DNA of 33,900 nucleotides from a virus, in IMG/VR virus record IMGVR_UViG_3300036834_000338, positions 1-33,900 of that record; one strand, written 5' to 3'. A model generated the notes under the pieces. It was not told where the DNA came from and searched no databases. It was given only the letters and a program-made list of their open reading frames with translations. This document shows, one piece after another, positions 10,983-32,998 of the stretch (position 1 is its first letter; each line of letters starts with the position of its first letter). Position numbers and translations under genes: made by a program.

Positions 10983-11330
10983 TTAACTCAGAGGTACGGT
11001 GGTTGAAACTGGCGTGCCGGTATCGGCAAGCGCCCCGGTAATGTCGACATACATCGCACCGGCGTCGCCGGTCTCAAAGCTGATAGCGGTCAGCCTGATG
11101 CGCGGCTCCCATCTCTGGATAGCGGAATAGCACGCCACCATGATTTGCAGCCTGAGCGCCGGGTTTTGCGGCATATCAATCAGCGCTGACAGAAGCGAGC
11201 CATATTCTCGACGCATCACCCGCGAGCCGACCGGCGTCAGCAGAATATCGCGCACGCTCTGGCTGATGTGCTCAGTGTCGCTGATGCCGAGGCCGGTGCT
11301 GCGGTTCATTCCCATATAGCGCGCCGTCAT
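10983..11330 (-). CDS. W: Baseplate wedge protein gpW
   Basis: This 115-aa protein has the same length as P2 gpW and belongs to the T4 gp25-like lysozyme-fold baseplate family (without lysozyme activity). The family motif REYGSLLSALID is at about residues 41-52, and the N-terminus has YMGMNRSTG. It overlaps V by 4 bp in an ATGA, so V-W-J-I-H-G are probably translated as a coupled series. Confidence 0.95.
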   Translation of the reverse strand: MTARYMGMNRSTGLGISDTEHISQSVRDILLTPVGSRVMRREYGSLLSALIDMPQNPALRLQIMVACYSAIQRWEPRIRLTAISFETGDAGAMYVDITGALADTGTPVSTTVPLS

Positions 11331-11968
11331 TTGGTGCCCTCCGTCCAGCTTCCGCCATTTTCAACGCCGCCGTGACCGTGGTTATCCACCTGTACACCGT
11401 TTGATTTAAACGCGCCGCCGGTGTGTTCGATATTGCCGCGCATGGTGCCGCCTTCCTGCACCTCAAGCGTTGCGGTCGTCAGCTTGTTGGTGCAGACCAC
11501 TTCCGGGGTGTCGAGGGTGATGCGGGTCTCGGCTTTTACCAGCACAACCGGCACGGTAGCCGTGATGGACTCCGATGCCGTCACGTCAGCGGTTTTGATA
11601 CCACTGACCGTCAGCGCGCTGGCCTCCGGCTCGTACTCAATGACCGCGCCATCAGGGAAAGCCACATGCCACGCATCCGCCGAGGCTGACGGGGCAGGGT
11701 TGTCGTCGGAGAAAATACCCGGCAGCACGAAAGCGGTATCGAGCTCGCCACCAATCGCCAGCAGCAGTACCTGCTCGCCCACCGAGGGAGCCCACCACGT
11801 ACGTGAGCGTCCAGCTCGATGGGTTAACCACTGGAGCCAGTCTGTGTAAATGCCGCCGGTCTGTACGCGACAGCGCCCGGTATCAAGGTCTGTTTCGACA
11901 ATGAGACCAATGCGAATCATGTTGCGTAGCGCGCGGGAGAGTTCCTGAATATGTGCAATTGTGTTCAT
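11327..11968 (-). CDS. V: Baseplate spike protein gpV
   Basis: This 213-aa protein (211 aa in P2) forms the trimeric membrane-piercing tip. It has an OB-fold N-terminal half and a beta-helix end, with NHGHGG near residue 197 resembling the HxH iron-binding tip of P2 gpV. The N-terminal MNTIAHIQELSRALRNMIR fits the family, so the ATG at 11968 seems right. Only CATCCTTCCAGT precedes it, with no Shine-Dalgarno match. A 9-bp hairpin sits 11 bases upstream. V is the first gene of its late unit and is separated from S by the foreign gene at 12039-13388, an unusual feature. Confidence 0.94.
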   Translation of the reverse strand: MNTIAHIQELSRALRNMIRIGLIVETDLDTGRCRVQTGGIYTDWLQWLTHRAGRSRTWWAPSVGEQVLLLAIGGELDTAFVLPGIFSDDNPAPSASADAWHVAFPDGAVIEYEPEASALTVSGIKTADVTASESITATVPVVLVKAETRITLDTPEVVCTNKLTTATLEVQEGGTMRGNIEHTGGAFKSNGVQVDNHGHGGVENGGSWTEGTK

Positions 11969-11978
11969 ACTGGAAGGA

Positions 11979-12002
11979 TGCCGTTGGGTGATACCAACGG
12001 CA
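11979..12002. other. Hairpin between the DUF4062 gene and V
   Basis: TGCCGTTGG and CCAACGGCA form a perfect 9-bp stem with a 6-nt loop. Leftward it is not followed by a T run, so a simple terminator is doubtful. It would fall in the V mRNA leader if the P_V element starts transcription near 11996, and could affect V translation, or it may mark the edge of the inserted segment. Confidence 0.45.
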
Positions 12003-12038
12003 ATTCGGTATGGCTTTATGATCTACTACACAACTGGA

Positions 12039-13388
12039 TTAATGGGGCAAAACTGATACAGCGTGGCTGAAAATCACAGGTTCCTTCAATTCCTCACAAA
12101 CTATTTTGATTTTGACAAATCCTTCACCTTCGGCAATTGGGATTAATGTTATTTCATCGAATGTTAATGACCGTGTTTGTAGCAGTTTTTTTGCTCGAAG
12201 AGTTATTCTCCCTCGTTCATAACTAATCCAATCCGAGGGGTTAACCTGCTGAATATGGTTAAACATATTTGATAATCTCAACTCTTGAGATTTTGTTGAA
12301 GGCAACTCGCTTCCAAAATAATCACCCGTTACTAAAGCTTTCCTAAGATCACTTAGCACCCTGTTTGCCTGCAACTTCCTTCGTTCCATTTCCACTGGAT
12401 GCGTCGGAATTTCAATAATTGGCAACTCTGTAAAAATACCTTTATTACTATGATTGAGTGCCACTAAAAAATCAGGTAACTCGACATCAACATAAATATC
12501 CGTAGCAACTTTACGCCCTAAATTTTCCAGTACTGGGGTGATTTTATAAGCACTATCTTCATAACACTTAAACAAGAACAGCTTTCTATTGTATGAATCT
12601 ATTTTTTCATTTGATGGTATTTTTTCATTATACTCTGCCAGCTGCCTATCAGTAATTAGTTCGCCATACTCTTCTGGCAAATCGCTCCGCCGTAGCTGAG
12701 GTATATACTCCTGTCCCGATTGGACTTCAGCGAGTGATAAAATCAGTTTTTCGTCTATCATTGATAATTTAAGAATAGGGGTTTCAGAAAATAATTGGCT
12801 TTCATACTCCCTCAATCTCTCTCGGAGTTTTCTGTTCTCTGTAGATAATTCGGCTAACTCATTAGATACTTCTTTCGGTGTGGCTTGATCTCCTCTGACC
12901 CACCCCACCTGCGGTGTTCGTCGCATTATTTTCGGTAGAGCTATTGCAACCTTCGTTGCCAAATCATCCATAGAAACCCAAAAATCACACATTTTATTAG
13001 CTTTGGCTTTCTCAATAAACCGCTCTAAGCTTTCGCTTTTTTTCGAATCACTTTCGCGCTCATTAGGTAAAGTCCCAACATTCCTATCCCTTATAAATGC
13101 GAGCACAGGAATACCAAGAGACTTAGCGTAATCATACTCCATCTCTGTATAACTCAATCCTGATGAAGCAACGGATCCGTATTTATGACCAATTATTATT
13201 ACGTAATAGTCACTACCTTCAATTGTCTCTCTTATAATATCCCACTGTTCAGAATCATCAGCACTAAACATCTCCATTCCGACAGGGAAATGATATAAAC
13301 TCAAAACAGTCTCAATGATTTTTTTTCGTGCCTGAAATAGGTCTTCGTATGTAGAGCTAACAAAAATCTGGTACTTTTTTTCGTCCAT
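12039..13388 (-). CDS. DUF4062 (TIR-related) domain protein, prophage accessory gene
   Basis: This 449-aa protein is not a P2 structural gene. Residues 6-100 form a DUF4062 domain: YQIFVSSTYEDL at 6-17, then a hydrophobic strand YYVIIIGHKYGS (61-72), LSYTEMEYDYA (78-88) and IPVLAFIRD (93-101). DUF4062 is considered a TIR/SIR-like Rossmann domain and is often fused to signalling or NTPase modules. Residues ~175-198 are heptad-like (coiled coil). Residues 200-449 match no family I recognise. The ATG at 13388 is chosen because GAGGTGG precedes it; a longer reading to 13439 lacks this. The gene is visibly AT-rich beside GC-rich phage genes and has its own promoter candidate. An anti-phage or lysogenic role is inferred only. 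Confidence 0.78.
   Translation of the reverse strand: MDEKKYQIFVSSTYEDLFQARKKIIETVLSLYHFPVGMEMFSADDSEQWDIIRETIEGSDYYVIIIGHKYGSVASSGLSYTEMEYDYAKSLGIPVLAFIRDRNVGTLPNERESDSKKSESLERFIEKAKANKMCDFWVSMDDLATKVAIALPKIMRRTPQVGWVRGDQATPKEVSNELAELSTENRKLRERLREYESQLFSETPILKLSMIDEKLILSLAEVQSGQEYIPQLRRSDLPEEYGELITDRQLAEYNEKIPSNEKIDSYNRKLFLFKCYEDSAYKITPVLENLGRKVATDIYVDVELPDFLVALNHSNKGIFTELPIIEIPTHPVEMERRKLQANRVLSDLRKALVTGDYFGSELPSTKSQELRLSNMFNHIQQVNPSDWISYERGRITLRAKKLLQTRSLTFDEITLIPIAEGEGFVKIKIVCEELKEPVIFSHAVSVLPH
12043..12060 (-). promoter_or_regulatory. Putative Ogr-dependent late promoter element P_V
   Basis: Leftward the site reads TGT-N12-CCA, as in the elements before FI and O. The predicted transcription start is near 11996, 28 bases before V, almost the same spacing as for FI. 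The element lies within the last codons of the DUF4062 gene (stop 12039-12041), so that gene's 3' end doubles as promoter. Confidence 0.48.
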
Positions 13389-13410
13389 ATCCACCTCTCT
13401 TTTTAGTAGC

Positions 13411-13441: not shown

Positions 13442-13900
13442 CTAATTCAACATTTTGCCTAACTCATCATAGATCATGTCTTCAAGTAGTCTCTGGTCGT
13501 CGCTTGAAAAACCGAGCAGCTTACGAACAGGATATTCCACGGCGGCACTGTTGCGTCCGGGCTTATCCTTAAGCCCTAACTGATGAACCCGTGCGATACG
13601 CTTCACCTTGCCGGTAAACTCCACCACCGCCGCACTGTCACTACCTTTGGCTTTCATAAAGCGGTTAGTACGCAGTTTGGCGAACATCTCGCGCTTAATG
13701 CGGCCTTTCTTGCTCCGCACCGGCTGGCGTTTTCTGGCGGCATACGGGGTGCCGTCGGGTGCCTGCTGCTGCTTAATGCGCTGTTGCTGGCTGGCGCGCA
13801 GCTTTTTGGCAATATCAGACGCCATTTTCCGGCGCCTCGCCGGTGACAGGCTGGCAATCAGACCGGCGAGGCGCTCCTGCAGCGCGGTTAACTCATTCAT
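13442..13900 (-). CDS. S: Tail completion protein gpS
   Basis: This 152-aa protein (150 in P2) is needed with R to finish the tail-to-head joining end. It is strongly basic, with RRRKMASDIAKKLRASQQQRIKQQ at about residues 21-44. The family phrase QQAPDGTPYAARK is near residues 45-57 and FTGKVKRIARVHQLGLKDKP near 94-113. It overlaps R by 8 bp. In other P2-like phages V normally follows S; here a foreign gene intervenes 54 bp after the stop. Confidence 0.95.
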   Translation of the reverse strand: MNELTALQERLAGLIASLSPARRRKMASDIAKKLRASQQQRIKQQQAPDGTPYAARKRQPVRSKKGRIKREMFAKLRTNRFMKAKGSDSAAVVEFTGKVKRIARVHQLGLKDKPGRNSAAVEYPVRKLLGFSSDDQRLLEDMIYDELGKMLN

Positions 13901-22801: not shown

Positions 22802-23350
22802 TTACTCACTTTTTTCGCTGTTAATTTTCGCAAAAATACCTTCTTGAATGAATCCAATGGATGACATCTTGTCATGCTTACCAACAAGAAAGTCTTCAAA
22901 TTCCTGAAAGTGCCCCAGAATGCACTCTTGAATTTTATCAAATACAGGTGTGAATTCATTTGAGTTACTGAGAGAGGTTATTTTTGTTGTGAAACCTATG
23001 CTATCAACACCAAATGTATATGAGCCATCATCATTTCTTCTGAATTTGAAGTCTATTTGGAAAGGCGACTGCGGGTAAGTATTAGAGTCTTTATAGACGG
23101 TCAATATAAACCCTAAATGCCAGAACCCATCATCCCCCAAATGAGTAGCTCCAGCGGGTGTATATTCCGTATTTGGATTTTCATCTTTATCTAACGGAAT
23201 TATTCTATATGCATCTACATTATCAATCCCAAGATAATCTAAATAATTTTTAATCACGTGACCAGAAAAGTTATACGCAGCAAATCGAGTATCAGAAAAT
23301 TTGTTCCGAAACTCGGTATATGCACTGCACAACTCTGTAAACTTTGACAT
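22802..23350 (-). CDS. Hypothetical protein, cos-side accessory gene
   Basis: I do not recognise this 182-aa protein. It is soluble, with no signal or membrane segment, rich in Phe/Tyr and Asp, and has alternating strands such as WHLGFILTVYKD (about residues 77-88) and IDFKFRRNDDGSYTFGVDSIGF (98-119). A helical C-terminus includes FDKIQECILGHFQEFEDFLVG. AGAGGATGG precedes the ATG. The DNA is clearly AT-richer than the virion genes, and the gene stands alone in the cos-proximal region where P2-like phages carry exchangeable lysogeny genes. A superinfection-exclusion or defence role is possible but not shown. Confidence 0.68.
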   Translation of the reverse strand: MSKFTELCSAYTEFRNKFSDTRFAAYNFSGHVIKNYLDYLGIDNVDAYRIIPLDKDENPNTEYTPAGATHLGDDGFWHLGFILTVYKDSNTYPQSPFQIDFKFRRNDDGSYTFGVDSIGFTTKITSLSNSNEFTPVFDKIQECILGHFQEFEDFLVGKHDKMSSIGFIQEGIFAKINSEKSE

Positions 23351-23384
23351 AATCCATCCTCTTTCGATTGTAAGTATCTAACGC

Positions 23385-23427
23385 CTCGCAGGGCTCGTTG
23401 TTCAACCCCGCCAGCCCTGAAAGCGAG
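23385..23427. other. GC-rich hairpin between two accessory genes
   Basis: CTCGC-AGGGCT (23385-23395) pairs with AGCCCT-GAAA-GCGAG (23413-23427), leaving a 17-nt loop and a 4-nt bulge. It stands out in AT-rich DNA and lies in the leader of the 22802-23350 gene. No T run follows, so it is not a clear terminator. Confidence 0.4.
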
Positions 23428-23460
23428 TTTCAGCTCCGGCGACGTTTGTCACTATATTGT

Positions 23461-24192
23461 TTAATTTTCGAGTATTGAATCAACCTCACCCGTTCGCACA
23501 TTAACGCGTGCCGCTACGGTCTGTTTGACCACGCCACCATAAGCATTAGTGCCGCGGAACGTTGTTTTTACAACGGCATGCGGATCTTTATTCAAAATAA
23601 GATGGTAGACCGTTGAAACATGTTTATAAGAGGAGTCATCATTCATGCTGGCTTTTATCAGCCTCTCTAACGGGCGATAAGAACCATCCCAACCGCTAAA
23701 ATTACCCTGAAATGCGTCAAGGTTAATTTTATTATTTAGTGATTGTGGATCCTTCTCGAAGTCGTTGAAACACCACCCCAACACATCTCCGAGCTTTAAT
23801 GCATCATCTTTAGTAAAAGTTAACTCACTCATACAGGCATAAAAGGCATCAGCAGAGCTGGGCGGTACACTTTTGAAATCAACATAATCTTTAACAATGC
23901 CGTGCCGAGTTTCTTTTGGCTCGTTGCGGTATTCCTTGAGGGTTTTATCCGCGTACTCAAACGTTGGCGTAGCAGGTTCCGCTTTAACCACCGGCGCATC
24001 AGTTTTTGCCACTGACTGACTTTTTTCAGTCGGCCATAAGATTGAACCAATAACCCCCAGCGCCAGACAACCACCGAGATAAACCGCACTTGAGCGCTTA
24101 CGGTTCGGCATCCGAACCAGCGACGGCTTGATAAGACCAATGATAAAAGCGATAAAAAGAGCCAGAGATAAAAAAGCTATTACGGTATCCAT
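23461..24192 (-). CDS. Hypothetical membrane-anchored protein, accessory gene
   Basis: I do not recognise this 243-aa protein. Two hydrophobic segments near the N-terminus (about residues 3-23, VIAFLSLALFIAFIIGLI; and 35-52, AVYLGGCLALGVIGSILW) flank a short basic loop (RMPNRKR). The remaining ~185 residues would then lie on the cytoplasmic side. They start with a Pro/Ala linker and include a domain with TVYHLILNKDPHAVVKTTFRGTNAYGGVVKQTVAARVNV near the end. The ATG at 24192 is chosen for AAGGA upstream; the frame remains open to 24219. It sits in the cos-proximal moron region. Confidence 0.7.
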   Translation of the reverse strand: MDTVIAFLSLALFIAFIIGLIKPSLVRMPNRKRSSAVYLGGCLALGVIGSILWPTEKSQSVAKTDAPVVKAEPATPTFEYADKTLKEYRNEPKETRHGIVKDYVDFKSVPPSSADAFYACMSELTFTKDDALKLGDVLGWCFNDFEKDPQSLNNKINLDAFQGNFSGWDGSYRPLERLIKASMNDDSSYKHVSTVYHLILNKDPHAVVKTTFRGTNAYGGVVKQTVAARVNVRTGEVDSILEN

Positions 24193-24214
24193 GATTTTCC
24201 TTTGTGTAATCCCA

Positions 24215-24248
24215 TACAAAACAACCCCATGCTATCAAACATGGGGTT
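24215..24248 (-). terminator. Terminator after the SOS-controlled gene
   Basis: Leftward, AACCCCATG and CATGGGGTT form a perfect 9-bp stem with an 8-nt loop, followed by GTTTTGT. It lies just past the stop of the DinI-domain gene (24272) and before the membrane protein gene. Confidence 0.7.
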
Positions 24249-31098: not shown

Positions 31099-32108
31099 TG
31101 ACTGTCCGTAAGAATCCGGCTGGCGGTTGGATTTGTGAGCTCTACCCAAACGGTGCAAAAGGCAAACGTATCAGAAAGAAATTCGCTACTAAGGGCGAGG
31201 CTCTGGCGTTTGAGCAGTACACCGTTCAAAACCCGTGGCAGGAAGAAAAGGAAGACAGGCGCACGTTAAAAGAGCTGGTTGATTCATGGTATAGCGCTCA
31301 TGGCATTACACTGAAAGACGGCCTGAAACGCCAGTTAGCTATGCACCATGCTTTTGAGTGTATGGGCGAACCACTCGCACGAGATTTTGATGCGCAGATG
31401 TTTTCCCGCTACCGAGAAAAACGATTAAAAGGTGAGTATGCCCGTTCAAACAGAGTGAAAGAGGTATCGCCTCGCACACTTAATCTTGAGCTGGCCTACT
31501 TCCGGGCAGTGTTCAATGAGCTAAACCGCCTCGGAGAATGGAAGGGTGAAAACCCACTGAAAAATATGCGCCCATTCCGCACAGAAGAAATGGAAATGGC
31601 CTGGCTAACTCACGACCAAATTTCGCAACTGCTCGGAGAGTGTAATCGGCATGACCACCCTGATTTAGAAACCGTGGTAAGAATCTGTCTCGCCACTGGC
31701 GCACGGTGGACTGAGGCCGAGAGCCTGAGAAAAAGCCAGCTCGCGAAATACAAAATCACTTACACCAACACCAAAGGCAGAAAAAATCGCACCGTCCCAA
31801 TCAGCAAAGAGCTCTATGAGTCTCTGCCTGATGATAAAAAAGGCCGGTTGTTTAGTGATTGCTATGGGGCGTTCCGTTCAGCTCTGGAAAGAACAGGCAT
31901 CGAACTACCGGCAGGACAGCTTACCCACGTTTTGCGCCACACCTTCGCCAGCCACTTTATGATGAATGGTGGTAATATTTTGGTCTTGCAGCGCGTGCTG
32001 GGCCATACCGATATCAAAATGACGATGCGATATGCGCACTTTGCCCCTGACCATTTAGAGGACGCCGTAAAACTTAATCCTCTTAATACGCATAAGGAAC
32101 AGCAATGA
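31098..32108 (+). CDS. int: Site-specific tyrosine recombinase (integrase)
   Basis: This 336-aa protein (337 in P2) recombines attP with the ileX site. An N-terminal arm-binding domain (VRKNPAGGWICELYPNGAKGKRIRKKFATKGEA) is followed by a core-binding SAM-like domain. The catalytic domain has ATGARWTEAESL (first Arg), HVLRHTFASHF (His-x-x-Arg), LGHTDIKMTMRYAHF (His and nucleophile Tyr). ATG 31098 is used; an in-frame TTG just before it belongs to the same TGATG overlap with cI. It is expressed with cI, as in 186. Confidence 0.95.
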   Translation: MTVRKNPAGGWICELYPNGAKGKRIRKKFATKGEALAFEQYTVQNPWQEEKEDRRTLKELVDSWYSAHGITLKDGLKRQLAMHHAFECMGEPLARDFDAQMFSRYREKRLKGEYARSNRVKEVSPRTLNLELAYFRAVFNELNRLGEWKGENPLKNMRPFRTEEMEMAWLTHDQISQLLGECNRHDHPDLETVVRICLATGARWTEAESLRKSQLAKYKITYTNTKGRKNRTVPISKELYESLPDDKKGRLFSDCYGAFRSALERTGIELPAGQLTHVLRHTFASHFMMNGGNILVLQRVLGHTDIKMTMRYAHFAPDHLEDAVKLNPLNTHKEQQ

Positions 32109-32998
32109 AAAAGTGCCCTGTCTGTGAACAGCTAAACAGCCTTGATAATCATCTTTATGAATTATCTATAGCCAGTGAATACTTTAAATCTGAGAAATAT
32201 AGTAATTTTTCAAATATCTCTGAATGGCTTAAGCTTTCTGCCTATCTTGATGAAGTTCTAATTACCCCAGAAAAATATGCAGGCTCTGACTTGATATGGT
32301 GTAGACCTGCAGCGGAAGCTTATCAGGCAGAACGGATTCATTACAGCCTCTACTCAACAGCTCTGACCCGCTTTCTATATACCTCTAACGCATTAGAGGA
32401 AACGTACCGTTTCGCAAGTACCTATTACACTCTATCACCGAAAGAGATCAAAGATAATAAAGAATTCAATAACAGTAAGAAGAGTGTTCTCCTATTCGAA
32501 AACACTAACGAAAATAACTTACCCAAAGACTTCTATCACCATTGTGAAAACTTGTTTTTGAAATTCGAAACTTATAAAAAAGAATATAATCCTAAAATTA
32601 GCATCATCAAAAATTACCCTAGTAATCATAAATGTCACGGCTTACACATCGTCCGCAACCTCAGAAATTTTATCGCACATGGTACGATTCCAATAAATCT
32701 TGTGCCTGAATACCATGGAGCCGCTGAGATGTGGCATGTGTTGCATGGTTTGCTAATCTCTGCAACCCGAGTAACAGCTCTATACATACAATCATTCCTT
32801 CTTGAATTTAGCGATAAGTTTGACATGAATACTTACCTCCAAAGGATGGATTACGAATACTATCTTGAACGGCAAGATGACATGTTAGAGGACGACCCGG
32901 AGCATGTGACGCTGATAGCACCTTCAAGCGCTCAACAATTGATAACTAGACTTCACCTTTCAGATGGCTTTGGTTATTTGAAAATCGCGACATATTAA
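32105..32998 (+). CDS. HEPN-motif protein, lysogeny-operon accessory gene
   Basis: I do not recognise this 297-aa protein as a family. It starts with CPVC (Cys4, Cys7). At residues 187-192, VRNLRNFIAHG contains R-N-x3-H, the R-x4-6-H motif of HEPN domains, many of which are RNases in toxin-antitoxin and anti-phage systems. The flanks are helical (IHYSLYSTALTRFLYTSNALEETYRFA; ATRVTALYIQSFLLEF). The gene is clearly AT-richer than int, which it overlaps by ATGA, so it should be made in the lysogen from the cI-int transcript. A role in protecting the lysogen is inferred. The motif also occurs in non-catalytic HEPN proteins. Confidence 0.75.
   Translation: MKKCPVCEQLNSLDNHLYELSIASEYFKSEKYSNFSNISEWLKLSAYLDEVLITPEKYAGSDLIWCRPAAEAYQAERIHYSLYSTALTRFLYTSNALEETYRFASTYYTLSPKEIKDNKEFNNSKKSVLLFENTNENNLPKDFYHHCENLFLKFETYKKEYNPKISIIKNYPSNHKCHGLHIVRNLRNFIAHGTIPINLVPEYHGAAEMWHVLHGLLISATRVTALYIQSFLLEFSDKFDMNTYLQRMDYEYYLERQDDMLEDDPEHVTLIAPSSAQQLITRLHLSDGFGYLKIATY

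Follow-up and report, generated by a model that had tools for sequence, protein, structure and literature searches.

A Swarozyc-like DUF4062 gene with a divergent C-terminal domain in the S-V tail junction of a P2-like phage

The IMG/VR record IMGVR_UViG_3300036834_000338 (positions 1 to 33,900, hereafter the window) is the 33.9 kb record of a P2-like prophage or phage. A single open reading frame (ORF) with an ATG start lies between its tail genes S and V, at 12039-13388 on the minus strand, and encodes a protein of 449 amino acids (aa). From its sequence the gene is described as Swarozyc-like: a predicted NADase effector joined to a sensor different from that of the known system. The protein is homologous to KpSwz of Klebsiella pneumoniae through its front half and has the catalytic position conserved, its C-terminal domain is a different one that evolves faster, and the gene is mobile and found in the company of other defence genes. 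It is probably a moron (lysogenic-conversion) gene for defence, whose single protein would act, like Swarozyc, as an abortive-infection effector.

By alignment, the front half is clearly related to the Swarozyc NADase and retains its catalytic Glu. Pfam detects DUF4062 at residues 7-88 (E=1.7e-27), the domain named in an earlier first-pass annotation of the window, and no other family; human TEP1, a protein of the RNA vault, has a DUF4062 domain too. The full length of the protein is spanned by phrog_9489, a family of unknown function. When phmmer is run against the Protein Data Bank (PDB), residues 3-198 align over 196 residues with positions 3-198 of the 326-aa KpSwz chain (10wc, 11cq, 11cv) at E=2.5e-46. 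The residues published for KpSwz as D16, R18, D71 and W176 occupy chain positions 3, 5, 58 and 163, a constant offset of 13, so that E97 corresponds to chain position 84. Ala is found there in the deposited chain, as expected for an E97A construct, and the window protein has E84, the predicted catalytic Glu (codon 13137-13139, minus strand). Both E84 and E82 are invariant in an alignment of 14 homologues. In the AlphaFold2 prediction a helix comes after an alpha/beta fold of five strands, and Foldseek matches of modest score include plant TIR domains and the SPARTA TIR-APAZ. The putative TIR-like (DUF4062) NADase domain covers residues 1-157 (12918-13388, minus strand). The predicted helix at residues 173-199 (12792-12872, minus strand) is the counterpart of the KpSwz stalk, the phmmer alignment reaching residue 198, and it agrees with the coiled coil noted earlier.

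KpSwz is the founding member of Swarozyc, described in a preprint of May 2026 (PMC13174449). There the DUF4062 domain acts as a TIR-like NADase, and depletion of NAD+ aborts the infection; defence requires E97 and an auxiliary domain, and the activator is the phage portal protein (PMC13174449). The window protein is like KpSwz in the aligned TIR-like domain and helical stalk, in the Glu at the equivalent position, in being encoded by a single gene, and in being mobile and found near defence genes. It is unlike KpSwz in that it resides in a P2-like prophage, is longer (449 aa versus a 326-aa chain) and, where KpSwz has a winged-helix auxiliary domain that binds the phage portal, has a predicted beta-sandwich domain with no detectable sequence relation to that part and no recognisable portal-binding domain. 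A winged-helix or helix-turn-helix auxiliary domain like that of KpSwz was looked for and not found, the KpSwz match ending at residue 198 and the model beyond it being a beta-sandwich; the gene is therefore not filed as Swarozyc proper. This difference is judged by sequence, by the published description and by the predicted model. Thoeris ThsB and other TIR effectors also share the TIR-like fold and the catalytic Glu, and a ThsB-type gene occupies the same junction of a related phage (L089). Assignment to ThsB was rejected: the window protein has no ThsB profile match in a PADLOC scan, and the ORF list holds no partner beside the DUF4062 gene between S and V, ThsA included.

The C-terminal part, residues 204-449 (12042-12779, minus strand), is predicted to form a beta-sandwich domain with a helical insert and is the proposed sensor. 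The AlphaFold2 model of the full-length protein has a low pTM of 0.43, and its best Foldseek matches are chance-like and straddle the two parts; for this reason a separate model was made of the C-terminal half. Residues 202-449 alone are predicted with a pLDDT of 81 and a pTM of 0.68, and comprise beta strands, a helical insert and a disordered stretch. Foldseek matches of this model have low TM-scores, are mostly beta-sandwich domains of the alpha-macroglobulin, complement and integrin type, and are taken to suggest a beta-sandwich and no further. A profile of the C-terminal half finds nothing significant in Pfam or the PDB, and a match of residues 242-310 to PD-Lambda-5_A (E=0.008) was taken as chance. 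Searching both halves by sequence and by structure model had been proposed in the first-pass annotation; the N-terminal half returned KpSwz and TIR domains, and no tail-protein fold appeared among the Foldseek matches of the full-length or the C-terminal model.

The two halves evolve at different rates. Mean pairwise identity among 13 homologues is 82% in residues 1-165 versus 40% in residues 204-449. The ratio of nonsynonymous to synonymous substitutions (dN/dS) in close pairs is 0.02-0.03 for the TIR part versus 0.2-0.5 for the C-terminal part, about tenfold, and dS is similar in both halves for the closest homologue pairs. A conserved effector joined to a fast-changing sensor fits this pattern; a C-terminal part under relaxed constraint would give much the same picture.

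Homologues were found at 16 IMG/VR loci in a first scan and at 3 more in a second, and all those with both flanking genes present (L002-L016 and L106) place the homologue between S and V. Among the matches listed for complete E. coli genomes, 15 of 20 have in common a match that covers the first 597 bases at 72% identity; the gene lies between S and V in the one that was inspected, and a Salmonella plasmid record also has the homologue in a P2-like S-V junction. Beyond P2-like phages, a full-length homologue (46% identical) forms one cassette of an integron array in Aliivibrio sifiae (L103:6001-7338), with attC-like repeats on both sides and many acetyltransferase-like cassettes among its neighbours. 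Another full-length homologue (39% identical) lies on a Priestia megaterium plasmid (L111:6001-13081), about 2.3 kb from a CBASS operon consisting of CD-NTase, E1-E2 and JAB. The homologue in another prophage adjoins PD-lambda-5_A-like and ATPase genes, and that in another phage adjoins genes that seem to be head genes, as judged from ORFs and not from a profile search. A tblastn search of named phages returned an Acinetobacter record only, in which the neighbouring genes look like bacterial chromosome.

Other relatives of the TIR-like domain were also encountered. A homologue from a deltaproteobacterial metagenome-assembled genome (L104:5965-7346) is 58% identical in this domain (residues 1-170), has a short and different C-terminal end, and overlaps a methyltransferase-like ORF. 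An E. coli island adjoining mutS (L112:3892-8915, NZ_CP051706) carries an integrase and a hypothetical gene together with another DUF4062 gene and a short reverse-transcriptase gene.

In the window, the cargo site is bordered upstream by gpS, the tail completion protein (13442-13900, minus strand; TIGR01635, PF05069), and downstream by gpV, the baseplate spike (11327-11968, minus strand; TIGR01644, PF04717/PF18715). The DUF4062 gene has the orientation of both, starts about 50 nt past S and is preceded by a Shine-Dalgarno sequence, AGGTGG (13391-13396, minus strand). Its GC content is 37-39% versus about 60% in the tail operon on either side. The first-pass annotation had reported just such an AT-rich gene between S and V with a ribosome site of its own, and both points hold. 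Its further statements do not. That ordinary P2-like phages have S next to V is wrong as a general rule, since orf30 occupies this place in P2 itself. That the junction lies outside the known cargo sites is incorrect, since foreign genes commonly reside at three loci, namely the TO region, the Z region and orf30 (PMC3091744). P2 orf30 is flanked by a putative terminator on one side and by the pV activator site on the other. Both cargoes come after the S stop codon and ahead of the stretch that precedes V, and both are AT-rich and nonessential; P2 orf30 differs in encoding 261 aa on the opposite strand and in having no Pfam or PADLOC match.

The S-V junction was surveyed in 75 IMG/VR records picked by gpV similarity, a sample biased to phages near this one. 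Forty junctions are empty (about 60-63 bp) and 35 are filled (0.8-3 kb, 34-39% GC), six of the latter with the DUF4062 gene and 29 with other AT-rich cargo, the alternative contents that the earlier annotation had suggested looking for. Known defence genes are among them. Two junctions (L020, L090) hold a complete two-gene Pycsar system (PycC and PycTM), and four others (L089, L096, L063, L087) hold ThsB (a Thoeris-type TIR, in L089), RT_UG17 (a UG17 reverse transcriptase), PDC-S21/SIR2-like and GmrSD_N/NsnA-like (PD-T4-2_A) genes. Further cargo includes P2 orf30 and GGDEF, pentapeptide, GTPase and unclassified genes; two E. coli examples carry a pentapeptide protein and a hypothetical protein. 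When scanned in the same way, ten core proteins of this phage gave zero PADLOC matches. Judged from these counts, S-V, already known as a variable (moron) locus, has the behaviour of a third defence hotspot of P2. For morons, at least two positions have been listed, A-Q and G-FI (PMC3573123), and the available text of two papers (Rousset 2022, Vassallo 2022; PMC9122126, PMC9519451) describes P2-like defence hotspots at A-Q (tin-old) and near fun (G-FI), not at S-V. As far as these texts go, S-V is like A-Q and fun in accepting interchangeable cargo, including defence systems, between blocks of essential phage genes, and unlike them in being another junction. A search of the open-access literature for S-V as a defence hotspot found none.

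At eight other S-V junctions (L030, L036, L073, L076, L078, L023, L057, L100) the AT-rich cargo encodes proteins of about 250-500 aa without a PADLOC match, and those that were scanned against Pfam have no match there either. These proteins are candidates for undescribed defence systems.

The insertion follows a regular anatomy. Where the junction is empty, a GTTGTG-type box comes immediately after the S stop, and a GC-rich hairpin then precedes V. Where it is filled, the box, and usually the hairpin too, remain beside V, with the cargo placed after the S stop and ahead of the box. The window has the GTTGTG box at the cargo/V boundary (12029-12034, minus strand) and the hairpin just before V (11980-12001, minus strand), the latter being present in many empty and filled junctions. 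Because the cargo is placed before box and hairpin, the region upstream of V and the order of the tail genes are unbroken. In both location and sequence the box resembles the 5' half of the annotated pV activator site of P2, and it may act as an Ogr site here.

The earlier proposal of a TIR-like effector with a sensor in antiviral defence is well supported by the KpSwz homology, the conserved Glu, the fast-evolving C-terminal part and the defence neighbours. In the mechanism considered probable, the TIR-like domain and helical stalk (residues 1-200) would be kept inactive, probably as dimers or higher oligomers. Recognition of an invading phage, through one of its components, by the C-terminal beta-sandwich would make the TIR-like domains rearrange, and NAD+ would be hydrolysed through E84. 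The infected lysogen would then die or stop growing before the competitor phage is released. By analogy with KpSwz, the protein may be expected to have NADase activity, to act by abortive infection and to bind its trigger through the C-terminal domain, presumably from an autoinhibited oligomer; the trigger need not be the portal.

Several observations weigh against this mechanism. The promoter candidate of the first-pass annotation was not borne out, zero sites being found upstream of the DUF4062 gene and the regional total of 4 equalling the shuffled expectation (4.1); the cargo at S-V is AT-rich, as expected of a moron, and the scan found no promoter to go with it. All S-V copies of the gene that were seen are oriented with the late genes. 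With this orientation, read-through from the late operon is possible in the lytic cycle of the phage itself, in which case the sensor must ignore the phage's own proteins. PADLOC (2023) gives the 449-aa protein a weak partial match only (E=0.008). Finally, no sequence match to KpSwz extends into the C-terminal domain, the predicted fold of which differs from that of the KpSwz auxiliary domain, and both trigger and activation may differ.

The same orientation and position also bear on what else the gene might do. A gene lying in the tail operon and reading with S and V in every S-V copy seen could encode a conserved part of the tail or virion, or a protein that acts with S and V to help tail assembly. 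Comparison of the junction across relatives had been set beforehand as the test that could overturn a defence role in favour of a conserved virion component, and most junctions lack the gene: the 40 empty ones lack any cargo and 29 hold unrelated genes. Neither Pfam nor PHROG nor Foldseek connects the protein with tail proteins, and homologues occur outside P2-like phages, in the integron, on the Priestia plasmid and in other phages. A tail or virion protein was rejected on these grounds and is considered highly improbable. Late expression in the phage's own lytic cycle, with the protein altering NAD or nucleotide metabolism of the host for the benefit of the phage and not defending the lysogen, is favoured by the orientation of the late operon, the start shortly after S and the lack of a recognisable promoter; DUF4062 is, moreover, distantly related to nucleoside deoxyribosyltransferases (PMC13174449). 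Against it stand the strong match to a proven antiphage NADase, the homologues outside phages and next to defence systems, the fast-evolving C-terminal half, and the defence genes that share the locus, some of them on the opposite strand. It is unlikely, if less so than a virion role.

A defence protein could also act otherwise than by depleting NAD+, its TIR-like domain making a signal molecule or serving only to oligomerise. TIR domains are diverse and some produce second messengers, and the mechanisms of DUF4062 proteins may be more varied (PMC13174449). The S-V cargo, however, holds no partner gene beside the DUF4062 gene, and the invariant E84 together with KpSwz-like sequence through the stalk favours direct NAD+ hydrolysis. 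This alternative is quite improbable, and an NAD+-depleting defence effector of the Swarozyc kind is preferred.

AT-rich ORFs also lie in two other regions of the window. The A-Q cargo region contains two of them, of 182 and 252 aa (22802-24219, minus strand), the second belonging to phrog_3403; neither has a Pfam or PADLOC match. An AT-rich ORF of 297 aa lies directly after the integrase gene (32105-32998, plus strand), with no Pfam or PHROG match and only weak and partial PADLOC matches.

The function of DUF4062 as an antiphage NADase has already been published; the interest here lies in the difference in the sensor and in the S-V locus. It is tentatively proposed, with confidence falling somewhat short of even, that such proteins form a second Swarozyc class, in which the same NADase and stalk would be joined to an unrelated, rapidly diversifying beta-sandwich sensor that responds to a trigger other than the portal, and which P2-like prophages would keep at S-V, a third defence hotspot, beside Pycsar, Thoeris-type, reverse-transcriptase and SIR2-like systems. 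The natural variants, with enzymes about 80% identical and sensors about 40% identical, offer a direct handle on which part sets virus recognition. The S-V junction, so far only a variable spot in the available text of the papers cited, would become a mining site for enterobacterial defence systems.
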